NCBI GenBank assembly: GCA_017541035.1
Contig: JAFXZW010000107.1
Coordinates: 1-57,805 of the forward strand
Source of the DNA: Eubacterium sp.
GTDB lineage: Bacteria > Bacillota > Clostridia > Lachnospirales > Lachnospiraceae
Length of the DNA stretch: 57,805 nt
Reading direction: 5' to 3'
Below are positions 35,013 through 52,376 of this stretch, in pieces. The notes under the pieces were generated by a model, which was not told where the DNA came from, made no database searches, and was given only the letters and a program-made list of their open reading frames with translations. Position 1 is the stretch's first letter, and every line of letters starts with the position of its first letter. A program made the position numbers and the translations under genes.

Positions 35013-36638
35013 ATGCTGGTTAAAACAAATGTGACGGAAATTCAGGTTTTCCGCAGCGGTGCAACTGTGATCCGGTGTGGGGAAGCGGATCTTGTACAGG
35101 GGAAAAATGTGCTTTTCATTTCGGGAATGACGACGACATCCGTGCGTGACAGCTTTCGTATGAAATTTCCGGAGAAGGTGCGTGCCGTGAACATCCAGAT
35201 CGTGGATGCGGATACCATGAAGGATGCGTCCGGGAAGGTCATCGAGAAGGAATCGGATCGCATAGAGAAGAAGCTGAATGAGATCTCCTACAGGATCGAA
35301 ACCTGTGAAATGATGCTGGAGTTATGGAAGAAAAACAGCGATTTCTCCACACGGACGAACGTATCCGTATCAGAACAGAATAAACTGATGGAGGAACTCC
35401 CCGGACAGCTGCTGACATTGCACCGGCAGATAGATGAGCTGACAGAGCAGAAGGAAAAACTTCTTGAGGAGCAGGAAAAAGCCGAGGAAGAGGAGAGGAA
35501 GCCGCTGATCATGGCGGAGCTTTCGGCGGAAGAAGAAGGAAAGGTACCCTTTATCCTGCAGTATCAGGAGAACTGCTGCAGCTGGATGCCGAAGTATGAG
35601 ATCCAGTATAGCGGAGACAGGAATCCGCTGGAGGTAAGCATGAAGGCGCAGATCCTTCAAGCATCGGGAGAGGACTGGAAGCAGGTGAAGGTGACACTTT
35701 ATACCGGGAATCCGTCCATTTCCAAGGAACTACCGGTGATGCCGGCCGTCGAGCTGTCTCTGTATGAGCCGCCGAAGGAGCGTTCGGCAGGAAGGAGAAT
35801 GCTGGCGGCGAAGGCTATGGCAGATGAGGATATCTGCGCAGTGGAGGATGCGGTCGAAGAGATGTATAGTGCGGACAGGATGATGGGCGCTTCCGTTATG
35901 GCAAATCTGAAAATGGATACCGCAGCGGTGTCTGAAGAGGAAACCATGACTGCCTACCAGCTTCCGGCACTCAGAGATGTCATTTCGGATACAAACGGTA
36001 ATATTGCGGATCTGCAGTTCTTCAGTGTAAAGGCGAATTATCATGTTCTGGCGATCCCTTCCGTGGATCCGAAGTGTTATCTGACTGCAGAAATTGCAGC
36101 CTCAGACTGGCCGCTTCCGCCGGCAACGGCCGCTGTCTATCTGAAGGATACTTTTGTGGGTGAGGTCTATGTGGATGCAGAGGCGGATACGGATCTTCTG
36201 ACTCTTTCTCTGGGACAGGATGAACGGTTGACCATGACCCGGACGGAGAGCCCGAAGAAGACGCAGGAAGCCTTCCTGAAGAATACAAGGAAACAGCAGA
36301 ACAGGATCAATATCCAGCTGGTGAACCATTCTTCGGATGTCGTAAGTGTACTCATCAGGGATCAGATCCCCATTTCAACAGACAAGTCCATCACGGTTGA
36401 ACATACGAATCTTTCAGATGGTCTGCTGGACGAGGAAAATGGTGAGGTTACCTGGGAAGTGAAAGCGGAACCGGATAAAACAGTCGGCTTCGAGCTGGAG
36501 TACAGCATTTCCTGGCCAAAGGATAAGCGTCTGTCTGAACGCCGCAGGGTGATAAAGGGAAATAAGCGGTACTGTCCGAATTGCGGAAGTATTGTAACCG
36601 GAAAGTTCTGTCCGGAATGCGGGTCGGTTGTCAACTGA
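35013..36638 (+). CDS. DUF4139 protein (mucoidy-inhibitor-A-like) with C-terminal zinc ribbon
   Basis: A 541-residue protein. The N-terminal part (VTEIQVFRSGATVIRCGEADL) is the DUF4140/4139 opening, then a coiled coil at about residues 75-165 (EQNKLMEELPGQLLTLHRQI). The main DUF4139 beta domain follows with WMPKYEIQYSGD, QASGEDWKQVKVTLYTGNP and RINIQLVNHSSDVVSVLIRD. An Ala/Met-rich acidic stretch (residues about 255-310) interrupts it. The end CPNCGSIVTGKFCPECGSV is a double zinc ribbon. There is no signal peptide. Function is unknown; co-transcription with superoxide reductase hints at redox stress (inference). Confidence 0.85.
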   Translation: MLVKTNVTEIQVFRSGATVIRCGEADLVQGKNVLFISGMTTTSVRDSFRMKFPEKVRAVNIQIVDADTMKDASGKVIEKESDRIEKKLNEISYRIETCEMMLELWKKNSDFSTRTNVSVSEQNKLMEELPGQLLTLHRQIDELTEQKEKLLEEQEKAEEEERKPLIMAELSAEEEGKVPFILQYQENCCSWMPKYEIQYSGDRNPLEVSMKAQILQASGEDWKQVKVTLYTGNPSISKELPVMPAVELSLYEPPKERSAGRRMLAAKAMADEDICAVEDAVEEMYSADRMMGASVMANLKMDTAAVSEEETMTAYQLPALRDVISDTNGNIADLQFFSVKANYHVLAIPSVDPKCYLTAEIAASDWPLPPATAAVYLKDTFVGEVYVDAEADTDLLTLSLGQDERLTMTRTESPKKTQEAFLKNTRKQQNRINIQLVNHSSDVVSVLIRDQIPISTDKSITVEHTNLSDGLLDEENGEVTWEVKAEPDKTVGFELEYSISWPKDKRLSERRRVIKGNKRYCPNCGSIVTGKFCPECGSVVN

Positions 36639-36791: not shown

Positions 36792-37454
36792 TTACAGCAT
36801 ATCCCTCAGAGCCTTCTGAAGCTTGATTACCTGCTTCTTCAGATCCGCATTCTCAGCCTTGAGAACAGCATTCTCTGCAATCAGTTTTTCTTCCTTTGTT
36901 GCAGCAGCTTTCTTAGTATCTGCGATTTTCTTTACTGTCTGTTTGGCAGTGCTCTTAGCTTCACTGATCGCTTTTTTAGCTGTTCTTACGGAAGACTTTT
37001 TCTCAGCAACAGGGGTCTCCTTTGCAGCTTTCTTAGCAGGAGCCTTCTTCTCGACAGCGGTCTTCTTAGCGGAAACGGTCTTCTTTTCGGCAGCAGCCTT
37101 CTTTGCAGGAGCGACTTTCTTTTCGGAAGCCGCCTTTTTGGTGGTAGTTCCGGTCGTCTTCCCGGCAGTCACTTTCTTAGCAGCTTCCTTCCCGGCAGGA
37201 GCGGCTTTCTTCTCGATGGTTTCCTTCTTCTCGGCAGCAGCCTTCTCAGCAGCCGGCTTGCGTCCACGCTTCTTCGGCGCTTCTTCCTTTTTCACATCGG
37301 CAGAAGCGTTTTTAACTGTTTTTGCCTTTTTTGCCCAGCCGGCAAGTGTCTGCCAGGGGATGGATAATTCCTTTGCAGCGATACGAACACTTGTCTCGGC
37401 AGCCCTGGCAATTGCAGCAGCCTTCTGTTCTTCCGTGTAACTGTTTTTGGCCAT
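36792..37454 (-). CDS. Histone-H1-like Lys/Ala-rich protein with N-terminal helix-turn-helix and C-terminal coiled coil
   Basis: A 220-residue very basic protein. Residues about 3-45 (SYTEEQKAAAIARAAE, IAAKELSIPWQTLAGWAKKA) look like the helix-turn-helix of IS3-type transposase OrfA or Psq domains. Residues about 55-180 are a low-complexity tail of repeated AAEKK, KKAAP and AKKA units like eukaryotic H1 and bacterial HctB/Hc1 proteins. The last 30 residues form a leucine-zipper-like heptad run (ENAVLKAENADLKKQVIKLQ). ATG 37454 follows AAAGGAGG at a slightly long spacing. DNA compaction with sequence-guided binding is a plausible role (inference). Confidence 0.75.
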   Translation of the reverse strand: MAKNSYTEEQKAAAIARAAETSVRIAAKELSIPWQTLAGWAKKAKTVKNASADVKKEEAPKKRGRKPAAEKAAAEKKETIEKKAAPAGKEAAKKVTAGKTTGTTTKKAASEKKVAPAKKAAAEKKTVSAKKTAVEKKAPAKKAAKETPVAEKKSSVRTAKKAISEAKSTAKQTVKKIADTKKAAATKEEKLIAENAVLKAENADLKKQVIKLQKALRDML

Positions 37455-37659
37455 TTTGGGTAAATCCTCCTTTATTCGTTTAAAAACTTGCCACATTGTA
37501 ACATAACGTCAAGGGGCAATCAATCCCAAGTTTTATTTTTGTCTGAAAATGACAAATAAAATGAAAAACCGGACTCTGAACATGTATCATTTGCTTGAAT
37601 TTGCAGATGTAATTCGGTAAAATATAGGGATAGTATTTAATCCGAAAGGACAGGGGAAA

Positions 37660-38877
37660 GTGGAAAAAAGCAGAAATTATATGGAGGCAATCTGGAACGT
37701 CACATATGCGTTGCAGGACAGCGGACAAATGGAGAACGGGCTCTCCAAATGTCTTACCATACTTGCACAGACGATAAAGTGTGAAAATGGATTTATCTGG
37801 ATGCATGATGATAAGGCGGGAAGACTCTGTATTATTGCTGCCTCCGGCCGTACGGATGTTACGGGAATCAGCGTGAATGACAATCAGGGGATCCTGGGAA
37901 GAGTATATCGTGAAGGATCGATTGTAACCATCGATGATTGTATGAATGACACGCGTTTTAAGGCGGATGAAGATGAGGAAACCGGCTTCCGGACCCGAAA
38001 TATGATCTGTCTTCCCCTTCGCGTGGGGGCAACCGTATTTGGCTGTCTTCAGCTGATCAACAAGGAACAGGGATCCTTTACGGATCGGGACATCATGCTG
38101 AGCGTAAATGTGTCTGCACTTGCCACTCTGGATCTGGAGGATAAAGGATACGAACTGCATTTTGACACAGACAGGAAGGCACTCATCTCACTGAGGGATG
38201 TAAAGAAATCCTTTCCCTCAGGGGACAGTACCATTACGATCCTGAAGGGTATCGATCTGGACATCTACGAAGGAGAATTCCTTGTGATCCTGGGTGAGAG
38301 CGGCTGCGGAAAAACAACGTTGCTGAATATCATCGGAGGTATGGATTCTCTTTCGGAGGGTACGCTTACCGTGGACGGGAAGGATTTCTCGCACCCTGCG
38401 GATCATGAGCTGACCCTGTACAGACGGGACTTTATCGGGTTTATTTTCCAGTCATACAATCTGATGCCAAATCTTTCGGCACTGGAGAATGTGGAATTCG
38501 TTGCCGAAAACTGTGAAAATCCCCTGTCACCCATGGAAGCTCTGGAACGGGTTGGCATGACGGAACGTGCGGGACATTTCCCGGCACAGATGTCCGGCGG
38601 GCAGCAGCAGAGAGTATCCATTGCCCGTGCTCTGGCGAAGAACCCGCGAGTGATTCTGGCGGATGAGCCTACAGCGGCGCTGGATTTCCAGACAGGACAG
38701 GAGGTCCTGATGATCGTGGAGGATATCGTTCGCAATCAGAAGAAGACGGTGGTCATGATCACACATAATGCGGAAATTGCGAAAATGGCAGACCGTGTGA
38801 TCAAAGTCCGCAGCGGACAGATCTCCAGTGTAAGAGTTAACGTGCACCCCCTGAAGGCGGCAGAAATAGTTTGGTAA
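37660..38877 (+). CDS. GAF domain fused to ABC transporter ATPase
   Basis: A 405-residue cytoplasmic protein. Residues about 5-158 are a GAF sensor domain (GFIWMHDDKAGRLCIIAASG, NQGILGRVYREGSIVTIDD, ICLPLRVGATVFGCLQLINK). Residues about 174-398 are a full MacB/LolD-type ATPase: Walker A LGESGCGKTT (211-220), Q-loop FQSYNL, signature MSGGQQQRVSIARAL (311-325), Walker B VILADEPTAALD and the H-loop MITHN. GTG 37660 has AAAGGA nine bases upstream; ATG 37681 is an alternative. The permease starts seven bases after the stop. GAF on an exporter ATPase suggests ligand control of transport. Confidence 0.9.
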   Translation: MEKSRNYMEAIWNVTYALQDSGQMENGLSKCLTILAQTIKCENGFIWMHDDKAGRLCIIAASGRTDVTGISVNDNQGILGRVYREGSIVTIDDCMNDTRFKADEDEETGFRTRNMICLPLRVGATVFGCLQLINKEQGSFTDRDIMLSVNVSALATLDLEDKGYELHFDTDRKALISLRDVKKSFPSGDSTITILKGIDLDIYEGEFLVILGESGCGKTTLLNIIGGMDSLSEGTLTVDGKDFSHPADHELTLYRRDFIGFIFQSYNLMPNLSALENVEFVAENCENPLSPMEALERVGMTERAGHFPAQMSGGQQQRVSIARALAKNPRVILADEPTAALDFQTGQEVLMIVEDIVRNQKKTVVMITHNAEIAKMADRVIKVRSGQISSVRVNVHPLKAAEIVW

Positions 38878-38884
38878 GATATAA

Positions 38885-41800
38885 ATGAAAAAGACACAAC
38901 GCAAAGATGCGGTTCGTAATATAAAACGTAAGATAGTGTCCTGGATCTCCGTTGTTATCGTAACGATGATGACAGTCGGGGTTTTTCTGGGGTGCTATTG
39001 CTTTAATCAGGTAACCCGTGAAGAGGCGATAAGGTATTACAGGGAACACAATTTCAAAGACCTGGAAGTGATCAGCAGTACCGGTGTGCTTCCGTCTGAA
39101 TTGGATATGCTGCGCAATGTGGAAGGTGTTCGGGATGCGGAAGGCTATCACCTGATCGAAGCCACGATGGAATACGGTGATAAAAATGTACTCAAGGCGG
39201 ACCTGATACGGAAGACGGAAAGGATCAGTACACCGGAACTGATTGAAGGAGCTCTTCCCGAGCAGAAAGGCGAGATAGCTGTAAGCAGAGGGCTGGCAAA
39301 GCAGAAGGGAATCAAAATTGGAGACAGTGTTCGGATATTGGCTTCATCGGAACAGGAGAAGCTGCTGGCCACCAATGATTTTACTGTTACAGGTCTTGTG
39401 GAGCATGCGGATTATTATCTGACCCGAAGCACAGATTTTCTCATGGCGGCGGACCCGTCCTTTGATACGGAAACGTTGAACGGCGGTTATCTTCGGGCGG
39501 TTATTGTCTGTGATCTCCCTGAAGATACAAACATTTTCAAGGATTCCTATTATGATCAGACAGCTCCTGTTGAAGACAGGATCAGGAGCCTTTTCCCAAG
39601 CATGATCGTGTCTCATGAAAACGAGATGCGCAGTATGCTGGAAGAGAAGTTTGAGGAGGAACTTGCCGAACCCCGGAAGAAGCTTGAGGACGGCAGAAAC
39701 GAACTGGCTGACGGGAAAAAGAAACTGGATGATGGAAAGGAAAAGATTGATCAGGGTGCAGAAGAACTCGCCCAAAAGGAACAGGAACTGGCTGACGGAA
39801 AGGCGAAGCTGGAGGAAACGGAGCAGAAGCTCATTGACAGCGAAAAGGAGCTGAACGCCGGAAGGACGGAACTGGAGGAAAAGGAGGCTGCCGGAAGAAA
39901 AGAACTGGCTGCCAATAAAACGAAGCTCACTGCGGCCGAAAAAGAGGTGGCAGAAGGAACCAAAAAGGTAAACACTGTCGAGACAACTATAAAGGATATC
40001 GCAAAAGCGCTGGGTGAATCGGATCTGCCGGCGGAATACTATACGCTGAAGAAAAAAGCGATTGAATATTATAAGCCGGCCATGCAGGCAAAGATTCAGA
40101 ACAGATCCAATGACAAACTGCTGGCTGACGCCGAACAAAAGGTGAATGCTGCGGTTGATGCCGAGATCAGCAGCGGCTCCGGAAAACTGGAAGCCTTTTT
40201 ACAAAAAGCGTCTGAAGAACAAAAGGCCAGATATGAAAAGCTGATAGCAGATCTGGAAAGTGCCGGTAAGAGTCTGCTGTATAAGCTGTTCAACGGACTG
40301 GGACAGGCAGGGGCTGCACAGATCGCCATTTCCGATGCGAAGAAACAACTGACCGCAGCTGAAAGAAAAGCGGAGACCGAGCTGGCTGAAGGAAAGCAGA
40401 AGCTGGCCGATGCGGAGAAGCAGCTGGAGGACGGCAGGGCACAATATGAGGAGGGTAAAAAACAGTACGAAGAGGGCCTGAAGCAGTTTGAGGATGGTAA
40501 GAAAAAGCTGGAGGATTCTAGAAAAGAGTATGAAGAAGGCCTGGCCGAATACGAAGAAAACAGGAAAAAGCTGGAGGACGGAGAGGAAGAGCTTTCGAAG
40601 AAGATCACTGAGGCAGAGGCACAGATCGAAGAGAAGATTGACGGCAGCTTTGTTGTTCAGAACCGACGGACGAATACTGGCTATGTCACGCTTCGCACAA
40701 ATGTGCATGCGATCGAAATGGCATCCGGAGCATTTATCATTCTGTTCCTGATCGTAAGCTCACTGGTGGCTTTTTCCACGGTTGTGATCATTGTGGACGA
40801 ACAGAAGGCTCTGGTGGGAGCCATGAAATCACTGGGCTTCTTCAACGCTGCGATCCGAAGCAAGTATATGATGTTCGGACTTTCCGCGGCAGTCGTTGGA
40901 TGCCTGACAGGTCTGCTGCTTGGTACCGGAGTTGAGGACGTCTTCCGATATGGAATCGATCCGCTTTATGTCAGCGGAAGGCCGGAATTTTCGATCAAGG
41001 TGATTCCTTATCTGATCGCGGTGGTTCTTGTCCTGGTTGTGGTAACAGCAGCAGTTACGGTGGCCTGCCGGAGTGTACTGAAGTATTCTGCGGTTCAGCT
41101 GATGAGCGGCAACACGAATACCAATGCCATGAAGAAGGAAACAAAGAACAAAAAGTCCGGAGGGCTGTACGGACGTCTGATCATGCGAAATATACGGACA
41201 GAGTTTCCCAGAGTTGTCATTACAACACTGATCGTTGCTTCCAGCTGTTTGCTGATCGGTGTGGGATTTACGCTCAGGGCAGGGTTCTCAGGCATGGTGG
41301 ATAAGCAGGTTTCCGATGTGTGGAACTATGATGTCCGCATTTCCTATGCAGACAGCATTTCACAGGAGGACAAGGAGAAAATGGAGGCAACGCTCCGGGA
41401 GTCTGGAACGGAATTTGTTTTCGCTATGGAGCAGGGACTGATCTATCGGACAGAGAAGCTGCAGGAGTATACATATGTTCTGGTAATGGATCAATCAATC
41501 ATTCCTTCGTTTTATCATGTAAAGGATATAAAAACCGGTAAGGAAATGTCTCTTCCGGAAGATGGCGTTCTGATCCAGAACAGAATACAGGAGACACAGG
41601 ATCTTTCTGTCGGTGACCGCATTTTCCTTTGTGACAGAAAACTGAAGGAACATGCAACGACGATTGCCGGTGTTTATGAAAATCATTACGGACGAACAAC
41701 GATCATGTCCAGAAAGGGTTATGAGCAGCTGTTTGGTAAGGAAGCACAGGATAATCTGTATTTCATACATCTGAACGGCGCCAATAAGGAAGAACTGGTC

Positions 41801-42277
41801 AGCAGGCTGAGAGAGATCTATCCATCCCTTCAGGTGAGTTCGGAAGCGGATATACAGGAGGAATTTTCAAGTATGAAGAGGGCCTACAGTACGGTTGTTC
41901 TGATGCTGACGGGTCTGGCGATACTGATGAGTGTCTTTATTCTTGCAAATCTGACGAATATTTTCATCAGCCGGAGACGTAAGGAACTGATCGTTATGCG
42001 GGTAAACGGCTTCAGTCAGAAACAGTGTATCGGTTATCTGATCCGAGAAACACTGACTACAACGATCTTTGGTTTTATCATAGCCATTCTTATCGGCGGG
42101 GCAATCGGAGCTTTTCTGGTGCGGCTTATAGAACCTCCCGAAGGAATGATGGATCGTTCCTTCCAGGTTATGGCATGGGTATATGCTGTGCTGCTGGAGG
42201 GTATATTTGCCTTGTGTATCAATACATGGGTATTTCGGAAGGTGAAAGATTTTAAGGTGACGGAGATTAATACTTAG
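38885..42277 (+). CDS. Giant FtsX-type ABC permease with extracellular coiled coil
   Basis: A 1130-residue permease partner of the upstream ATPase. A first membrane helix lies at about residues 18-40. A MacB-like outside domain runs to about residue 240, followed by a long extracellular coiled coil of repeated LEDGRNELADGKKKLDDGKE and YEEGKKQYEEGLKQFEDGKK units (about 245-370 and 495-580). Two FtsX domains follow, each with three to four helices (about 610-740 and 1000-1125), separated by a second outside domain. The layout matches large Clostridial FtsX/MacB permeases thought to act on the cell envelope or extrude peptides. Cargo is unknown. Confidence 0.9.
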   Translation: MKKTQRKDAVRNIKRKIVSWISVVIVTMMTVGVFLGCYCFNQVTREEAIRYYREHNFKDLEVISSTGVLPSELDMLRNVEGVRDAEGYHLIEATMEYGDKNVLKADLIRKTERISTPELIEGALPEQKGEIAVSRGLAKQKGIKIGDSVRILASSEQEKLLATNDFTVTGLVEHADYYLTRSTDFLMAADPSFDTETLNGGYLRAVIVCDLPEDTNIFKDSYYDQTAPVEDRIRSLFPSMIVSHENEMRSMLEEKFEEELAEPRKKLEDGRNELADGKKKLDDGKEKIDQGAEELAQKEQELADGKAKLEETEQKLIDSEKELNAGRTELEEKEAAGRKELAANKTKLTAAEKEVAEGTKKVNTVETTIKDIAKALGESDLPAEYYTLKKKAIEYYKPAMQAKIQNRSNDKLLADAEQKVNAAVDAEISSGSGKLEAFLQKASEEQKARYEKLIADLESAGKSLLYKLFNGLGQAGAAQIAISDAKKQLTAAERKAETELAEGKQKLADAEKQLEDGRAQYEEGKKQYEEGLKQFEDGKKKLEDSRKEYEEGLAEYEENRKKLEDGEEELSKKITEAEAQIEEKIDGSFVVQNRRTNTGYVTLRTNVHAIEMASGAFIILFLIVSSLVAFSTVVIIVDEQKALVGAMKSLGFFNAAIRSKYMMFGLSAAVVGCLTGLLLGTGVEDVFRYGIDPLYVSGRPEFSIKVIPYLIAVVLVLVVVTAAVTVACRSVLKYSAVQLMSGNTNTNAMKKETKNKKSGGLYGRLIMRNIRTEFPRVVITTLIVASSCLLIGVGFTLRAGFSGMVDKQVSDVWNYDVRISYADSISQEDKEKMEATLRESGTEFVFAMEQGLIYRTEKLQEYTYVLVMDQSIIPSFYHVKDIKTGKEMSLPEDGVLIQNRIQETQDLSVGDRIFLCDRKLKEHATTIAGVYENHYGRTTIMSRKGYEQLFGKEAQDNLYFIHLNGANKEELVSRLREIYPSLQVSSEADIQEEFSSMKRAYSTVVLMLTGLAILMSVFILANLTNIFISRRRKELIVMRVNGFSQKQCIGYLIRETLTTTIFGFIIAILIGGAIGAFLVRLIEPPEGMMDRSFQVMAWVYAVLLEGIFALCINTWVFRKVKDFKVTEINT

Positions 42278-42366
42278 TTCACCGGATTGTGCGTGATAAG
42301 GGATCGGAGCAGGTATTTACCCTGTGCCTGTTTGCTGCCGGAATAATAGAACGAGTGAGGTACTCT

Positions 42367-45300
42367 ATGAAACGATTTCAGTCATTTTGCCGTAGAATTC
42401 GCACCGGGCTTTTCACAGCCTGTTTCGGTGCGGCTCTTCTTTATGGATACGCCGGAACAGTTTACGCCGAAGGCATTTCCGGAGGGGATCATGAAGAGAT
42501 CAATGTGGATCCCACAGGTCAGGGGGAGGGCTTTTCAGCTGTTCTTTACGATAATACCAAGGGACTGCCCACCTCCGAAGCGAATGCCATTGCGGAGACC
42601 AAGGAAGGCTTCCTTTGGATCGGCAGTTACAGCGGTATGGTCCGCTATGACGGAAATACCTTTGAACGTGTTGATTCCACAACAGGTGTAACCAGCGTGG
42701 TAAGCCTTTATGTGGACAGTAAGGACCGCCTTTGGATCGGAACAAATGATAATGGCGTCGCAATGATGGAAAAGGGCGTGATCACCAGCTTTAAAGGCGC
42801 GGAAGGGATCAAATCCGATTCTGTAAAATCCATTGTGGAGGATGATCAGGGTAATATCTACATTGCAACCACACTTGGAATCGGTGTGATCGATCAGGAT
42901 CTTACCTTGCATCCTGTGGATGAGCCGCAGATCAATTCCGAGTATGTCTGCGAATTCCGTAAAGGAGAAGACGGCGTGATCTACGGAGAGACCATGAAGG
43001 GCGCCGTTTTCACCATCGAGAACGGAAAACTGAGCGGTTTCTATGACGGAAAGAAAATGGGCATTGAGGGTGTCTATACGGTACTGCCCGATCCGGATAA
43101 TAACGATTATGTGTATATCGGCACGGATCATTCCGAAATCTACTACGGGAAGCTGGGAGACGGAATGAAGAATGCAAAGGTGATTAATGTATCACCTCTC
43201 GGTTGTGTGAATTCCATGGAGAAGATTCAGGGACAGCTGTGGATCTGCGCGGATAATGGAATCGGAATGATCGATAAAAACGGCAAATTCACCCGTCTGG
43301 GGAACATCCCCATGAATAATTCCATCACTCACATTCTGACGGACTATCAGGGGAATCTCTGGTTCACTTCTTCCCGTCAGGGCGTCATGAAGATCGTGCC
43401 GAACCGTTTCTCTGATATTTATGAGCTGTACGGTCTGGAGCCGGCGGTAGTCAATGCGACCTGCCGTCTGGATGACAAACTCTATGTGGGGACAGACACG
43501 GGTGCAACCATTATTCAGTCAAATATGGGGTCTGTCGAGGTTCCGATCGAGGAACTGACACTGGACGGAGAGAAATACACCACATTGAATTCTCTGCTCA
43601 GCGGCTGCCGCATCCGTGCAATTCTCCGGGACAGCAAGGATCGTCTGTGGTTTTCCACCTTCAGTGATCACGGACTGATCATGTTTGATCACGGAAAAGC
43701 AATTGTTTACAGAACGGAGAACGGTCTCGCTTCCAACCGTGTACGGAGTGTATATGAGCTTTCGGACGGACAGATGATGATCTCCTGCAGCGGCGGCGTG
43801 GCAATTATGAAGGATGGCGTTGTTGTGGATATGTATGATAACGGCGCCGGCCTCAGTAACCTGGAGATTCTGACCATGGCGGAAGCAGATAACGGGGATC
43901 TGATCTTCGGTTCAGACGGTGACGGAATCTACGTTGCCAAGGGGCATAAGGTTACAAATATCGGAAAGGAATCGGGCCTCGGCTCGGAGGTTATCCTCCG
44001 GATCAGAAAGGATACGGAGCGAAATATCTTCTGGATCATCACCAGTAACTCCATTTCCTATATGACCGCAGATTATAAGGTGACCACCATTGACAAGTTC
44101 CCCTATTCAAACAATTTTGATATTTACTGGAATAAGGCAGGTGAAATGTGGATCCTCAGCAGTAACGGTATTTACGTTCTGAAGGCGGAGGAACTGATGG
44201 CAAACGGAGAACTCTCTCCGGTATTCTATAACCGGGATAACGGTCTTCCCTATGTATCGACGGCCAATTCTTACAGTGATCTCGGGGCTGACGGGGAGCT
44301 GTACATTTCCGGAACGGCAGGTGTCTCCAAAGTAAATATTGAAAAGAACTTTGATGATGTAAGTGAAATCCGGATGGCGGTTCCATTTGTGGAGATTGAC
44401 GGGGAACTGAAATATGCTGCGGATGACGGATCCTTCACCATCCCGGCAGATACCAAACGTCTTACGATTTACAGCTTTGTTTATTCCTATTCATTGCTGA
44501 ATCCGCAGGTAACCTATCATCTGGAGGGCTTCGATCAGTCATCCATCACTGTCTCCAGAGATAAGCTGGAACCGATCGATTATACGAATCTGGACGGCGG
44601 AGAGTATACCTTTGTCATGGAACTTACGGATTCCATGGGAAAGGGTAATGAGAAGATGACAGTGCGCATCGTGAAGACAAAGTCTGTGTATGAGGAAACG
44701 TGGTTCATGGTGACCATGGCAGTCCTTGGCGTACTTCTGATCATCGGTCTGGTGTTCTTTATTGTTCGAAGAAAGACGAAAGCGCTGCTGGCCAAGCAGG
44801 AGGAGAACCGGACGCTGATCCGTGAGATATCCGAAGCATTTGCAAAAACCATCGACTTGAAGGATAAATATACAAACGGTCATTCAACACGTGTTGCGGA
44901 ATACACGACCATGCTGGCAAAAGAATTGGGATACGATGATGAAACAGTAGAGAAATACCGAAATATTGCACTTCTACATGATATCGGGAAGATCGGCGTC
45001 CCACCGGAAGTCCTGAACAAGCCCGGAAAGCTGACAGATGAAGAATTCAAGATCATTAAATCCCACTCTTCTCTCGGCTATCGTGTTCTGAAGGATATCA
45101 GTATCATGCCGGAGTTGGCAATCGGCGCAGGCTCCCATCATGAGCGCCCGGACGGCAAGGGTTATCCCAAGGGACTGAAGGGCGACGAGATTCCGCGTGT
45201 TGCACAGATCATTGCGGTTGCGGATACCTTTGATGCCATGTATTCAGACAGGCCGTACCGTAAGAGAATGAATTTTGAAAAAGCTGTCTCGATCATTAAG

Positions 45301-45474
45301 GAGGTCTCCGGAACTCAGCTGGAAGCGGATGTGGTAGATGCCTTCCTGCGTCTGGTTGATAAGGGCGAATTTCGAGCTGAGGATGATAATGGCGGCGGAA
45401 CATTTGAAGATATTAATAACATCCATAAGAAGCAGGAAGCTGCAGAGGATGGGAAGAAGGAAGCATCCTCTTAA
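42367..45474 (+). CDS. Two-component-type propeller sensor with HD-GYP c-di-GMP phosphodiesterase domain
   Basis: A 1035-residue protein. A signal peptide ends near TVYAEG. Residues about 50-690 form an extracellular beta-propeller of Reg_prop repeats (ETKEGFLWIGSYSGMVRYDG, DSKDRLWIGTNDNGV and others). A Y_Y_Y domain follows (VTYHLEGFDQ). One membrane helix lies near 775-797. The HD-GYP domain (about 820-1010) has all metal and GYP motifs: HDIGKIGVPPEVLNKPGKL and HHERPDGKGYP. The output is probably c-di-GMP breakdown. Residue order mirrors hybrid two-component propeller sensors but with HD-GYP in place of a kinase. GAGTGAGG precedes ATG 42367, 90 bases after the permease. Confidence 0.93.
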   Translation: MKRFQSFCRRIRTGLFTACFGAALLYGYAGTVYAEGISGGDHEEINVDPTGQGEGFSAVLYDNTKGLPTSEANAIAETKEGFLWIGSYSGMVRYDGNTFERVDSTTGVTSVVSLYVDSKDRLWIGTNDNGVAMMEKGVITSFKGAEGIKSDSVKSIVEDDQGNIYIATTLGIGVIDQDLTLHPVDEPQINSEYVCEFRKGEDGVIYGETMKGAVFTIENGKLSGFYDGKKMGIEGVYTVLPDPDNNDYVYIGTDHSEIYYGKLGDGMKNAKVINVSPLGCVNSMEKIQGQLWICADNGIGMIDKNGKFTRLGNIPMNNSITHILTDYQGNLWFTSSRQGVMKIVPNRFSDIYELYGLEPAVVNATCRLDDKLYVGTDTGATIIQSNMGSVEVPIEELTLDGEKYTTLNSLLSGCRIRAILRDSKDRLWFSTFSDHGLIMFDHGKAIVYRTENGLASNRVRSVYELSDGQMMISCSGGVAIMKDGVVVDMYDNGAGLSNLEILTMAEADNGDLIFGSDGDGIYVAKGHKVTNIGKESGLGSEVILRIRKDTERNIFWIITSNSISYMTADYKVTTIDKFPYSNNFDIYWNKAGEMWILSSNGIYVLKAEELMANGELSPVFYNRDNGLPYVSTANSYSDLGADGELYISGTAGVSKVNIEKNFDDVSEIRMAVPFVEIDGELKYAADDGSFTIPADTKRLTIYSFVYSYSLLNPQVTYHLEGFDQSSITVSRDKLEPIDYTNLDGGEYTFVMELTDSMGKGNEKMTVRIVKTKSVYEETWFMVTMAVLGVLLIIGLVFFIVRRKTKALLAKQEENRTLIREISEAFAKTIDLKDKYTNGHSTRVAEYTTMLAKELGYDDETVEKYRNIALLHDIGKIGVPPEVLNKPGKLTDEEFKIIKSHSSLGYRVLKDISIMPELAIGAGSHHERPDGKGYPKGLKGDEIPRVAQIIAVADTFDAMYSDRPYRKRMNFEKAVSIIKEVSGTQLEADVVDAFLRLVDKGEFRAEDDNGGGTFEDINNIHKKQEAAEDGKKEASS

Positions 45475-45507: not shown

Positions 45508-46707
45508 ATGAGATATCCAGCACCCCTCCCGGATGGAGGAACCATCGGTTTTGTAGCGCCGTCCTTCGGCTGTGCGATCGAACCGTATAAAACAGGCTTT
45601 CAGAGCGCGCTGAATCGTTTTCATGAAATGGGTTATCAGACAAAGCTTGGTCCGAACTGTTATGCAGGGGAGGGCGTCGGGATCAGCAATACACCGGAAC
45701 TCTGCGGAAAAGAACTGAATGAAATGTATGCCGATCCGGAAACGGATGTTCTGATCTCCTGCGGCGGCGGCGAGCTGATGTGCGAAGTAGTGCCGTATAT
45801 GGACTGGAACGTGATCAGAGAATCCCGTCCGAAATGGTATATCGGTTATTCAGACAATACGAACTTCACCTTCCTTTCCACGACTCTGACAGATACGGCG
45901 GCTATCTACGGTCCCTGCGCCCCGACCTTTGGTATGGAACCGCCGGCAGATTCGGTAAAGGATGCCCTTTCTGTATTGCGGGGCGGACTGACGGTACATA
46001 ATTATCCGAAATGGGAGAAGGAAAGCCTGAAGGATGAGGAGCATCCAACGGTTCCCTATAATATGACGGAGGAATACAGACAGAGGGTGTTTGTACCGGG
46101 ACCGGGTATTGGGAAAGAAACGGATGAGTTTGTTTCGGGACTGGGTTTTGGGAAAGCAAAGGAGGAGATTGTTCCTGAATCGGATTTCGGGAAGGCAATG
46201 GATGAATATAAGTCCGAAAAACTGTCAGGTGAAAATATCATCTGCAGAAGCATAAGGCAGGGTATAGTACGGGAAACAAACAGTACATCCTTCGAGGGAC
46301 GTCTGATCGGAGGGTGTGTGGACATCCTTGTAACATTATTGGGAACACGATTCGATAAAACACAGGAGTTTCTGGAACGTTATAAAGAAGACGGGTTTAT
46401 CTGGTTTTTGGAATCATGTGATCTGACTCCTCTTGACATGAGACGTGCCTTCTTCCAAATGAAAGAAGCCGGGTGGTTCAGATATGTAAAGGGTTTTCTG
46501 ATCGGACGACCGCTGCATTTTGATGAAGACATGATGGGCGTGGATCGGTATGAAGCAGTACTTGCCGTTATCGGCGAGCTGGGGGTTCCGATACTGATGG
46601 ATCTGGATATCGGACATTTGCCACCCCAGATGCCGTTGATCAGCGGAGCATATGCAAAAGTTGAAGCGGCGGATAACCGGTTGAAAGTTGAGTTTCAACT
46701 GAAGTAG
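45508..46707 (+). CDS. S66 peptidase (LD-carboxypeptidase/MccF family)
   Basis: A 399-residue serine peptidase of the family that trims murein LD-peptides or inactivates microcin C. The catalytic serine is in YIGYSDNTNFTF, the glutamate in IWFLESCDLTP and the histidine in DLDIGHLPPQMP. The opening GGTIGFVAPS is typical. Residues about 197-235 hold an insert of three 13-residue repeats (GPGIGKETDEFVS, GLGFGKAKEEIVP, ESDFGKAMDEYKS) between the two lobes. GGAGG lies seven bases before ATG 45508. It may be co-transcribed with the HD-GYP gene 33 bases upstream. Confidence 0.92.
   Translation: MRYPAPLPDGGTIGFVAPSFGCAIEPYKTGFQSALNRFHEMGYQTKLGPNCYAGEGVGISNTPELCGKELNEMYADPETDVLISCGGGELMCEVVPYMDWNVIRESRPKWYIGYSDNTNFTFLSTTLTDTAAIYGPCAPTFGMEPPADSVKDALSVLRGGLTVHNYPKWEKESLKDEEHPTVPYNMTEEYRQRVFVPGPGIGKETDEFVSGLGFGKAKEEIVPESDFGKAMDEYKSEKLSGENIICRSIRQGIVRETNSTSFEGRLIGGCVDILVTLLGTRFDKTQEFLERYKEDGFIWFLESCDLTPLDMRRAFFQMKEAGWFRYVKGFLIGRPLHFDEDMMGVDRYEAVLAVIGELGVPILMDLDIGHLPPQMPLISGAYAKVEAADNRLKVEFQLK
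46098..46214 (+). repeat. Three in-frame 39-base repeats inside the S66 peptidase gene
   Basis: Units 46098-46136, 46137-46175 and 46176-46214 each encode 13 residues with the core FGK or IGK. The third unit is the most diverged. Confidence 0.7.
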
Positions 46708-48863: not shown

Positions 48864-51800
48864 ATGGGAAAAAAGCTGAAACGACAATCCGTATGCTGGA
48901 TATTTACTGCATTGTTGATTCTTACACTTGTTCTGACACCTGTTGCAGGAAGGGGGGGCCTTCAGGCAGCTACCGTTTACACCCTTGAGGCAAAGCTGAT
49001 CGACGGGGATAATATGCCCGGAGTTTACAGTGTTACGGCAGTTCCCGGACAAAGTATAGAAGCTGAAAATACCATCGGTATTCCTTCGGTTTCGAAGCAG
49101 ACGCTGGCAAATGAAGCGACAAAGGAACTCCCGGCCATCATTATGGGTGCAGCGGTCAATTTTGAAAAAAAGACAGGCCCCACCACCTATGAACGAATCG
49201 GGGAAGATACCGAGCGCATCGCACCTTACAGCTACTTCCGCTGGGGTGTTATGGATGAGCAGATAAAGGAAAAGGACGGAACTACCAGTACGCACAAAAA
49301 GCTGAGTGGGTTTGACGGTTCTTATTATATCATCCGTGTAAATGTAAGCGAGATTATCAAAAACTGTGGTGAGGGACAGTATCTTCATGTGAAGCAGGAG
49401 AATAATAAAGCCCTGATGGCAGCCATAGGAATGGATGGAACGACATTCTCTGACGGACTGGGAAATAAGACAGGTGCCTATTCGCTGGCCAATCATTTTG
49501 CAGCACTGAAAGATACCGGAGCGAACGATCTTGATAAGGATACTCCTTATTTTGACGTGATCGTTTATTCTTCCGGAAAGCTTGCAGCAGGTGCCGATGC
49601 CGGAAAGCAGGATGCGCCGAGTGCGGATATCAAGCTCAGCTTCTATGTGGATGACAAGGTTCAGTATAACGAACTGGAGCCGCTTCCGACAACAAATCCG
49701 CCTACATTTCCCTGGACATGTCCCACAAATGGCAAGACATATCAGCTTGAAACGGACTATACCAAGGATCTTCTGGCAAAATTCTATGATGACACAGCAG
49801 CCCAGAATGCGGACACGGCAAATAAAGCCAGTTATCTGGTAAAGGGTTCTGATCTGGAGACGGATGTTGCGATCGATGAAAGCGAGATGACGGAAGGAGA
49901 TGCAACCCAGAAGACGGATGGCATCAACTGGATGACAAAGAATGCTGATTTCTGGTCCATGACAAAAGCCATCGACCATCAGCAGTACGATAACCATACC
50001 ATTATCCTCATTTGCGAGGTTCCGGTTCTGGAAGGCCTTAAGATCTCAGGAACAGACAAGAGATCAGTCATACTGGATGTAAACAGCTTTGATATCCAGA
50101 TCGCCAATAATTCAGAGAAGGATACGGCAGGCCTGGAGATTGATAACAATGCACAGATGAGACTGATGGACAGTTCAAATACCTCCGGTGCCGAGCTGGC
50201 GATCGGAAACAATGCGACCATGGTCATTAAAAAGGGAGGCGTCATGATCATTGATGAATCCTGTACGGCTGAGGTCGAATATGATGCCGCTACGGCAGTA
50301 GAGCAGTCTCAGATGGATACTTCTGTACTGAATGGCGCCATTGTTGTAGAGGATGGCGGAAAGCTGATTAATTATGGCGTGATTAACGTCGAAGGAACAG
50401 AAGGAAAACCTCAGCAGGAGGGACAGACGGTATATTACGACAAGAAGAGCGCGGACATTACGGTAAAGAAAGGCGCGATCCTTGACAATTACGGGTGTGT
50501 ATCACTTAAGGGCGTTATGTACATGCTCGGAACATTTAATAATTACGGAAAATATGACGATGTCATCACGGCATATGATCCCGATAAAGGAAATACTTCC
50601 TATCATAAGGGTGTTCAGATCACCTGGAAGGATGATGTTACTGCCGAGGGTGTGGAACCCGGTGTGCTGAATATCGGAATCGATGCAGACAAGAATGTTG
50701 ATAAGAGCGCAACCTTCAATAATTACGGTGATGTGGCCATCTTCCCCGGAACCATCAATCTTTACGGAACCTTCAGTAATCTGACAAAGGACGGGTATTC
50801 GGGACATTTATACACAAGTACGGTAAAGGAAGCCATCATCCCCATCACACCTGACCCGAATGATCCCCTTACTGTAGAGAAAACGGTAGTAGTGGATCCT
50901 CCGAAGAAGAGTGTGTTCAATAATCAGGGAACCTTTGATAAGGGAGAAGGCGTAGTAGCCAAGGTTACGGTAGAGCTGATCCATAACGGCGTACCCGGAA
51001 AGCTGACGGTTCTTCCGACTGCAACATTGACACAGCCGGTAGAGAAGACACTTTCTTATACCGGAGAAGCTCAGGAGCTAGTTACGGCTGGCAGCACAAC
51101 CGAGGGAAAAATGTATTATGCTCTTGGTGAAAATGAAGAGGAAGCACCGGAATTTGATGCTTTATCCGAAGCAGCGGAAAAGAAGTGGACAGAAGTGGTT
51201 CCGTCTGTGACGAAAGCCGGAACATACTATGTATGGTACATGGTAGTTGGTGATGATGACCATAATGATACGGAGCCTGTCTGCATAAAGACAGAGATTC
51301 CCTTCCCGGTAAATCATACCGTACTCTTTGTAGTAGAAAACGGTTCCTGGGATGACGGAACGGCAGGCGACAAGGAAGTAACAGTGAGTGGTTATGAGGG
51401 CGATGTTCTGAAGCTTTCCGAGACGGATATTCCTGCAGTCGGTAAGAAACCCTCATCCGGATATCAGGCAGGCGACTGGGATGTGATACCGGATGCCGAG
51501 ACGGTTGTTACGGAAGATATTGTATTTACCTACACTTATGAAAAGAAGCCGGATCCCGTGATCCCGGAGCCGGTTGATGACAAGGCAGAGAAGGATGCAG
51601 AAGCAGCTGAAAAAGTTACCAAGATGATCAATGCTCTTCCCGAAGCGACAGACATCAAGACATCCGATAAGACGGCTGTTGAAGCGGCACGTGCGGCTTA
51701 TGAGGCGCTTACGGATGACCAGAAAGCACTGATCAGCAAGGATGTTCTGAAGAAGCTGACGGATGATGAAAAGGCTCTGAAGGAAGCGGAAGACGATACA

Positions 51801-52376
51801 GAAAAATATTCAAATGAGTGGGTAGACGGCAAGTGGTATGACGCGGACGGAGAGCAGACCTACGAACCTGAAGCAAAATGGTATAAGAATAGCAAGGGCT
51901 GGTGGTATGAGGACGAGTCAGGCTGGTATCCCAGAAAGAGCTGGCAGAAGATCGACGGAGAGCTGTACTTCTTCGACGCCCAGGGATATATGGAGGCAGA
52001 TGCATTCCGTGATGGTTACTATCTGACGAAGAGCGGCGCCAGAGCAGAAGGAAAAGCACTCGGCTGGAAGAAGGATGCAAAGGGCTGGTGGTATGCACTG
52101 ACTGAAGAAATCTGGATTTCAGGTATATGGCAGAAGATCGACGGAAGATGGTACTATTTCCATGAAGACGGTTACGCAGCACAGAACGAGTTTATAAAAG
52201 GCTGGTGGTGCAATGAAAACTGCGTGCAGAGCTATACCTACCGCAGCAGCTGGAAGAAGGACGCAAAGGGCTGGTGGTATGGTGATGCAACCGGCTGGTA
52301 TGCAAAGGGAGAATTCTATCTGATCGATGAAGTATCCTATGCATTCAGTGCAGAGGGTTATTGCCTGAATCCCTGA
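48864..52376 (+). CDS. Large secreted surface protein with cell-wall-binding repeats
   Basis: A 1170-residue exported protein. A signal peptide covers residues 1-36 (ends LQAATVY). The N-terminal region is unassigned. Residues about 380-660 are rich in asparagine and look like a right-handed beta-solenoid built on NYG units (INYGVINVEG, FNNYGKYDD, FNNYGDVAIF). Then come Ig-like/MBG-type units (LSYTGEAQELV, FVVENGSWDDGTAG) and a helical Lys/Ala/Glu linker near 905-975. The last 190 residues hold wall-binding units (NSKGWWYEDESGWYP, WQKIDGRWYYFHEDGY). AAAGGAGG precedes the start. It is probably an adhesin. Confidence 0.88.
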   Translation: MGKKLKRQSVCWIFTALLILTLVLTPVAGRGGLQAATVYTLEAKLIDGDNMPGVYSVTAVPGQSIEAENTIGIPSVSKQTLANEATKELPAIIMGAAVNFEKKTGPTTYERIGEDTERIAPYSYFRWGVMDEQIKEKDGTTSTHKKLSGFDGSYYIIRVNVSEIIKNCGEGQYLHVKQENNKALMAAIGMDGTTFSDGLGNKTGAYSLANHFAALKDTGANDLDKDTPYFDVIVYSSGKLAAGADAGKQDAPSADIKLSFYVDDKVQYNELEPLPTTNPPTFPWTCPTNGKTYQLETDYTKDLLAKFYDDTAAQNADTANKASYLVKGSDLETDVAIDESEMTEGDATQKTDGINWMTKNADFWSMTKAIDHQQYDNHTIILICEVPVLEGLKISGTDKRSVILDVNSFDIQIANNSEKDTAGLEIDNNAQMRLMDSSNTSGAELAIGNNATMVIKKGGVMIIDESCTAEVEYDAATAVEQSQMDTSVLNGAIVVEDGGKLINYGVINVEGTEGKPQQEGQTVYYDKKSADITVKKGAILDNYGCVSLKGVMYMLGTFNNYGKYDDVITAYDPDKGNTSYHKGVQITWKDDVTAEGVEPGVLNIGIDADKNVDKSATFNNYGDVAIFPGTINLYGTFSNLTKDGYSGHLYTSTVKEAIIPITPDPNDPLTVEKTVVVDPPKKSVFNNQGTFDKGEGVVAKVTVELIHNGVPGKLTVLPTATLTQPVEKTLSYTGEAQELVTAGSTTEGKMYYALGENEEEAPEFDALSEAAEKKWTEVVPSVTKAGTYYVWYMVVGDDDHNDTEPVCIKTEIPFPVNHTVLFVVENGSWDDGTAGDKEVTVSGYEGDVLKLSETDIPAVGKKPSSGYQAGDWDVIPDAETVVTEDIVFTYTYEKKPDPVIPEPVDDKAEKDAEAAEKVTKMINALPEATDIKTSDKTAVEAARAAYEALTDDQKALISKDVLKKLTDDEKALKEAEDDTEKYSNEWVDGKWYDADGEQTYEPEAKWYKNSKGWWYEDESGWYPRKSWQKIDGELYFFDAQGYMEADAFRDGYYLTKSGARAEGKALGWKKDAKGWWYALTEEIWISGIWQKIDGRWYYFHEDGYAAQNEFIKGWWCNENCVQSYTYRSSWKKDAKGWWYGDATGWYAKGEFYLIDEVSYAFSAEGYCLNP

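Follow-up and report, generated by a model that had tools for sequence, protein, structure and literature searches.

The 57,805-nt stretch of Eubacterium sp. DNA analysed here (hereafter, the window) encodes an ABC ATPase that carries an N-terminal GAF domain (GAF-ABC ATPase) and, directly behind it, a very large FtsX/MacB-like permease. Judged from their sequences, the two proteins are best read as a conserved ABC pair of type VII, the class of MacB and YbbAP, with a sensor fused to the ATPase, and so as a variant on the known type VII theme. For the clade of window-like pairs, putative gating of the ATPase by a cyclic mononucleotide is our leading idea. A three-gene system that would also contain the adjacent propeller/HD-GYP protein and signal through cyclic di-GMP (c-di-GMP), as proposed in a preliminary description of this DNA, is not supported.

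The ATPase and the permease are a conserved pair

Of the 75 distinct GAF-ABC genes (window included), 68 have a permease gene in the same orientation no more than 400 nt away, on either side, and the ATPase and the permease are thus a conserved pair. Three of the seven remaining genes are at contig ends (L009, L045 and L047; L and G numbers designate loci and genomes throughout). In L056 the ATPase frame is broken and the permease lies farther downstream, an open reading frame (ORF) intervenes between the two genes in L179, the permease of L051 is on the strand opposite to the ATPase, and L024 has a shortened downstream ORF in which no permease was recognised. GAF-ABC relatives occur in uncultured and cultured Lachnospiraceae, Ruminococcaceae, Oscillospiraceae and other Clostridia, many of them from rumen samples according to their record titles. 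At least 17 of the 61 genomes of the window's genus have a GAF-ABC gene. At an E-value of 1e-100, the spread was 3/391 genomes sampled from the class and 13/397 sampled from the family, and matches spanning the GAF domain numbered 3 and 10, respectively.

The motifs of the window's ATPase are intact (Walker A, SGGQ, ADEPT..LD and TH) and its closest solved relative is MacB (5e-59). When 56 aligned ATPases were searched with Pfam, ABC_tran was present in all 56 and GAF in 55. The pair also resembles GAF-less pairs of an ABC protein and a large permease in the same genus: in G000:C93, the ATPase is 49% and the permease ~25% identical, but the ATPase match begins at query residue 166 and lies in a frame of 247 amino acids that has no GAF domain.

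The permease fits two MacB-like four-helix units joined in one chain, as predicted from hydropathy. Predicted helices are at residues 17–35, 618–636, 662–680, 710–728, 777–795, 1003–1021, ~1052–1079 and 1094–1112, and hydropathy alone, with nine windows of which two overlap, lets a layout of first helix, outside domain and helices two to four be placed two times along the chain. The predicted outside domains would comprise ~580 and 207 residues, each after the first helix of its unit. Besides the Pfam FtsX match (Table 1), the permease had weak matches to YtrF (8e-4) and LolF (0.007), and the family profile matched LolE at 4e-6.

Much of the first outside domain is predicted to be coiled coil. 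Residues 253–590 are 43% charged with three prolines, and their heptad-period signal was reached by none of 500 shuffles (3/500 for residues 253–345 and 2/500 for residues 491–590). Coils of SMC and tropomyosin are also among the matches of the permease family profile. Because this stretch lies between the first and second predicted helices, the topology usual for type VII would place it outside, in agreement with the long extracellular coiled coil of the preliminary description. Lengths of 46 aligned permeases (window included) range from 802 to 1417 amino acids; the coil insert is therefore variable and must be small or missing in the shortest relatives. In two related genomes, the permease is split over two consecutive ORFs (L042:11216-14949 and L062:11228-14925), the first of 449 amino acids and the second of 795 and 783 amino acids, respectively.

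How does the pair compare to known machines? YbbP is a pseudosymmetric type VII permease with ten helices, bound by two ATPases (PMC12646458). Like YbbAP-TesA and MacB (PMC12646458, PMC5985334), the pair combines a MacB/LolD-type ATPase with an FtsX-type permease and, like YbbP, the permease looks by hydropathy like two copies of a four-helix unit, each with an outside domain following its first helix. Several features set it apart: (i) a GAF (or PAS) domain on the ATPase; (ii) a first outside domain with a coiled-coil insert of ~340 residues; (iii) eight helices by hydropathy, in contrast to ten in YbbP; and (iv) no TesA-like or adaptor gene recognised beside the pair. FtsEX works with partners (EnvC, PcsB or CwlO) that place a coiled coil outside the membrane. 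The pair shares with FtsEX an FtsX-type permease, an ATPase and the outside coil, but its coil would be inside the permease chain and its sensor is fused to the ATPase.

The GAF domain of the ATPase

A profile built from 46 of the family's GAF domains and run against solved structures (PDB) matched CyaB2 (5e-29), the phosphodiesterases (PDEs) PDE2A (2e-27) and PDE5 (7e-25), also PDE6 and PDE10, and 4mcw, the GAF of an HD-GYP protein (1e-24); the remaining GAFs matched at 1.5e-11 and weaker. Used alone, the GAF of the L224 ATPase had cGMP PDEs as its top-ranked matches. By sequence, the GAF of the pair thus belongs to a class, also found on other enzymes, that includes the cAMP- and cGMP-binding GAFs of CyaB2 and PDEs.

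The NKFDE motif is described as distinguishing cyclic-nucleotide GAFs (PMC11977230, 2025), and mutating each of its residues in PDE2 GAFb led to loss of cGMP binding (PMC11977230). At these positions, the 56 aligned GAFs have N in 55, K in 41, F/Y in 54 and D/E in 56 cases. CyaB2 GAFa itself has A at the final position in a printed alignment. Like the cyclic-nucleotide GAF regulators CyaB2, PDE2 and PDE5 (PMC4411481, PMC11977230), the domain of the pair combines the GAF class, an N-terminal regulatory place and NK...F/Y...D; unlike them, its output is an ABC ATPase, it lacks the final E and its binding of a nucleotide is putative. A second messenger would make a reasonable ligand of this GAF, and gating of the ATPase through it by a cyclic mononucleotide, although putative, is plausible. 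The preliminary description had spoken of ligand-gated transport; the GAF and ABC domains are indeed there, and the gating is an interpretation of them and not an observation.

A cyclase gene stands behind the pair in one genus

Four loci in the genus of G679 (L224, L254, L255 and L256) have genes for a GAF-ABC ATPase, a permease and a PAS-cyclase in this order on one strand, with the cyclase ORF starting 16, -1, 13 and 3 nt after the permease stop, respectively. The L224 cyclase has PAS and Guanylate_cyc domains by Pfam and the other three are 55–58% identical to it. These cyclases have the metal-binding aspartates and the Asn/Arg pair of transition-state residues. Their base-specifying positions are Glu and Gly, as in five other aligned PAS-type cyclases, and Lys and Thr in the three cyclases of the window's genome, which we take to be guanylate-like and adenylate-like, respectively. 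The latter include two paralogues, L235:1062-3872 (937 amino acids, HAMP by Pfam) and L236:3995-6814 (940 amino acids).

The sensor of the ATPase also varies. In G612 (L233:5476-9391), a PAS domain replaces the GAF domain on an ATPase of the GAF-ABC kind with an FtsX-like permease alongside, and this PAS is similar to that of the L224 cyclase, with 26% identity over ~205 amino acids.

A relative of a tandem cyclic-nucleotide-binding protein was found within 900 nt on the same strand at 12 of 24 other cyclase loci (L260–L283; one of the 24 is CHASE2-like, and the 12 positives include two Pfam-checked search seeds and two with a short ORF). A receptor next to such cyclases is thus a recurring arrangement; at the four loci with a cyclase behind the pair, no such relative was found. 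PAS-type cyclases stand beside a double cyclic-nucleotide-binding protein relative in L278:9565-11854, and also in L263, L264, L265, L277 and L279, the two binding domains being confirmed by Pfam on L278 and L260 only. In L271:3799-7033, a GAF-GGDEF gene and a TIR gene precede a class III cyclase gene (Pfam); L281, L282 and L283 resemble this arrangement, with GAF-GGDEF identified by Pfam on L283 and neighbours of similar size in L281 and L282.

A cyclase and a possible receptor in one gene row, seen in one genus, could also recall a Pycsar-like defence effector: infection would fire the cyclase, and the GAF-ABC machine would damage the envelope. In Pycsar, a cyclase that shares class III motifs is paired with a receptor for cyclic nucleotides, and the TIR receptor is a cyclic-nucleotide-binding domain fused to a killer domain (PMC11224242). 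We consider this explanation very improbable because the ATPase is intact, the cyclase carries a PAS sensor and a pyrimidine cyclase beside a gated effector was not found: the window's contig (C26) has no match to the class III cyclase family PF00211, the only cyclase model tried there, and the cyclases of relatives are PAS-type with Glu/Gly.

The pair co-occurs with class III cyclases

In the family sample, PF00211 was found in 6 of 10 genomes with a full-length GAF-ABC gene and in 61 of 387 without (p = 0.002); including the genome with the PAS-bearing ATPase, the count was 6 of 11 (p = 0.004). In the window's genus, where the pair was counted among the matches listed, 16/17 pair genomes had any PF00211 match compared to 24/44 others, and 15/17 compared to 4/44 had HAMP or PAS cyclases, subtypes assigned by open-frame length with a Pfam check on L235 and L224 only. 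The 17 pair genomes include G046, which has a broken ATPase frame, and two (G033 and G025) in which a contig end truncates the pair. In genomes with a completeness of 90% or more, hand-counted and including two that are more than 5% contaminated, HAMP or PAS cyclases were present in 11/11 with the pair and in 3/22 without it (4/22 with the G016 fragment).

We used a tree of propeller-protein orthologues as a stand-in for the species tree (45/61 genomes and 15/17 pair genomes; built by a quick method, with long branches flagged), which offered ten independent contrasts. For HAMP or PAS cyclases, 7.7 contrasts were in the same direction and 0.0 in the opposite direction (median p 0.008). HAMP cyclases alone gave 6.3 and 0.0 (median p 0.03), and PAS cyclases alone 4.0 and 0.1 (median p 0.125).

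Proposed mechanism and its main alternative

What would switch the ATPase? The explanation we favour, tentatively and at slightly less than an even chance, is that the pair is a MacB/YbbAP-like type VII mechanotransmission machine switched by a cyclic mononucleotide through the GAF domain on its ATPase. One permease chain of two fused MacB-like units would act with two copies of the GAF-ABC ATPase; a 2:1 complex of ATPase and permease is expected because YbbP, by analogy, is bound by two ATPases. ATP binding and hydrolysis would move the outside domains and the built-in coiled coil and so do work on the envelope (export, or remodelling of lipid or wall) instead of just letting a solute pass. 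We infer this stoichiometry and mechanotransmission from the known machines. The GAF would be the switch, licensing the ATPase when a small ligand from the cytoplasm binds to it. This ligand would most likely be a cyclic mononucleotide supplied by the cell's own class III cyclases, which have adenylate-type residues in the window's genome. The sequences themselves show the two genes and their linkage, the domains, the intact motifs of the ATPase and, in some relatives, the cyclase gene behind the pair; ligand identity, direction of control and the job outside are what we infer. A cyclic mononucleotide is favoured, at least in the window-like clade, because of the cyclase behind the pair in four genomes and the co-occurrence described above.

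A number of observations weigh against this explanation. Some concern the GAF domain: (i) the window GAF alone has 4mcw as its top match (5e-16), followed by cyclic-nucleotide PDEs; (ii) a control GAF, from the GAF-GGDEF protein of L271, matches CyaB2 and PDEs even more strongly, so the class is common to GAFs on other enzymes, and we dropped class membership as sole proof of cyclic mononucleotide binding; (iii) the full NKFDE motif is not found, since the final E occurs in 0/56 GAFs (I in the window); and (iv) the positions equal to D485 and T488 of PDE2A, which we take to be nucleotide contacts, are D in 19/56 and T in 12/56. Others concern the cyclases. A cyclase was found behind the pair at 4/54 loci with at least 5 kb downstream. 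Even in the genus of G679 it is present at 4/7 GAF-ABC loci: the contig of L257 ends ~120 nt past the permease, and the divergent pairs L258 and L259 have no cyclase. Being confined to one genus, the gene row may reflect a single event. The three cyclases of the window's genome are on other contigs than the pair. The division into HAMP and PAS subtypes was chosen after the data had been seen; when the fragments in G016 and G044 are counted, 6/44 genomes without the pair have HAMP or PAS cyclases and the tree gives 7.2 contrasts in the same and 1.0 in the opposite direction (median p 0.07). For any PF00211 match, the tree gives 4.9 and 0.0 (median p 0.06). Finally, PF00211, the only cyclase class sought, had no match in 26/45 genomes, of unstated completeness, behind GAF-ABC loci (45 of 52 loci; six others are in the genus set and L045 was left out).

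A type VII machine whose GAF senses another signal (redox, a metabolite, c-di-AMP or ppGpp) or only clamps the ATPase dimer, with a sensor that varies by lineage, is a serious contender, to which we give a chance somewhat short of even. In its favour are the pocket positions of the GAFs, of which there are two or more types (D-type and F-type among them), the PAS domain in L233, the genomes lacking a PF00211 match and the GAFs of the same class on GGDEF proteins. Against it, the cyclase behind the pair and the co-occurrence point to a cyclic mononucleotide in the window-like clade.

Gating by a cyclic mononucleotide also suggests a broader proposal, possible but held with less than even confidence: an envelope ABC family whose ATPase is directly switched by a cyclic mononucleotide through its fused GAF, some members having a PAS-cyclase in the same gene row. 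GAF and PAS would be exchangeable, and the row would form a line in Clostridia that senses, synthesises and actuates.

The propeller/HD-GYP gene and c-di-GMP

The preliminary description had joined three co-directional genes into a system for envelope export, with c-di-GMP controlled by the propeller/HD-GYP protein and sensed by the GAF. The three ORFs do lie on the + strand as claimed (Table 1), and the stated gaps (7 and 89 nt) are correct provided that the third gene starts at ATG 42367, which is preceded by GAGTGAGG; the longest ORF starts at GTG 42289. The HD-GYP signatures HDIGK and HHERPDGKGYP are both intact, and the propeller protein also has a Y_Y_Y match below the Pfam cut-off. No terminator-like site was listed between 42277 and 42367, such that co-transcription of the propeller gene with the pair is possible at this locus; a promoter-like match is present at 42053–42081, inside the end of the permease gene. 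HD-GYP genes were also found upstream of the pair in L034 (8217–9872, 119 nt away on the same strand) and in L029 (an HD-GYP/propeller gene on the opposite strand), and a few relatives have EAL or GGDEF genes nearby.

The distribution of these genes argues strongly against such a system. Among 40 loci with 8 kb or more of sequence past the pair, one, that of the window, has a propeller or HD-GYP ORF behind the pair. Propeller orthologues (E = 0) are present in 41/61 genomes of the genus and the pair in 13 of these 41, and the pair is adjacent to the propeller gene at none of 20 further loci, some of whose contigs are short. Seven of the 20 keep genes that sit at about 6.8–13 kb in the window, and four have a second HD-GYP gene directly behind the propeller gene. 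The propeller gene beside the pair thus looks like a rearrangement of the window's lineage. We reject the trio as a conserved system. The neighbourhood search instead found conserved linkage for the pair, and what stands of the three-gene machine is the ATPase–permease unit with its predicted outside coil and ATPase-borne sensor.

Counted within 9 kb, c-di-GMP genes numbered 6 in 618 kb for 52 GAF-ABC loci and 3 in 235 kb for 19 loci of the genus. The control figures were 3 in 339 kb for 21 GAF-less loci of the same genus and 1 in 378 kb for 24 others; the comparison is of low power, and the 52- and 19-locus sets overlap. A c-di-GMP link by neighbourhood is thus not clearly above same-genus controls, and we know of no c-di-GMP-binding GAF. 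Coupling of the pair to c-di-GMP is not supported, and the three-gene explanation is in our view highly unlikely. The propeller/HD-GYP protein looks like an independent c-di-GMP phosphodiesterase sensor next door by chance. The S66 peptidase, said in the preliminary description to fit an envelope theme, follows the propeller gene at only one of the 20 other loci (G003, L164) and is likewise judged a neighbour.

Layout of the locus

Genes were called from an ORF list and a Pfam domain scan (Table 1). The gap between the propeller and S66 genes is 3 nt for the longest S66 ORF or 33 nt for ATG 45508, which has a GGAGG.

Table 1. Features of the GAF-ABC locus and its downstream neighbours (window coordinates)
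Feature	Position	Strand	Basis
GAF-ABC ATPase, 405 amino acids, GTG start	37660..38877	+	ORF, Pfam
GAF domain, ATPase residues 28-153	37741..38118	+	Pfam GAF 1.4e-13
NK...F...D part of NKFDE: N134, K135, F140, D144; final E = I145	38059..38091	+	
ABC nucleotide-binding domain, ATPase residues 175-391, catalytic motifs intact	38182..38832	+	ABC_tran 5e-34
FtsX/MacB-like permease, 1130 amino acids	38885..42277	+	Pfam FtsX 1.4e-23, two stretches
Coiled-coil-rich insert (predicted), permease residues 253-590, first outside domain	39641..40654	+	
C-terminal FtsX domain, permease residues 1008-1111	41906..42217	+	Pfam
Propeller/HD-GYP protein, neighbour judged outside the system	42367..45474	+	Reg_prop repeats 2e-30, HD_5 7e-36
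S66 LD-carboxypeptidase, neighbour judged outside the system	45508..46707 (longest ORF from 45478)	+	

Divergent from the ATPase gene, 36792–37496 (-) encodes a protein of 234 amino acids with a transposase-type helix-turn-helix at its start, just below the Pfam cut-off, and a lysine/alanine-rich tail. A DUF4140/DUF4139 protein at 35013–36638 (+) has a zinc-ribbon-like C-terminus, below the Pfam cut-off. The 1170-amino-acid protein at 48864–52376 (+) has a C-terminus that presumably resembles cell-wall-binding repeats; ORFs with similar repeats are found near cyclases in L274–L276.

Significance

No description of a GAF-ABC fusion was found in the literature searched (titles and beginnings of abstracts, with few subscription journals), so it has possibly been published. 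To our knowledge, none of the known type VII ABC machines is switched by a sensor fused to its ATPase, and few outputs of cyclic mononucleotide signalling are known in Clostridia of the gut and rumen. If the sensor acts as proposed, a signal in the cytoplasm would act directly on type VII ABC machines; the row that includes a cyclase gene points to one such output that can be tested.

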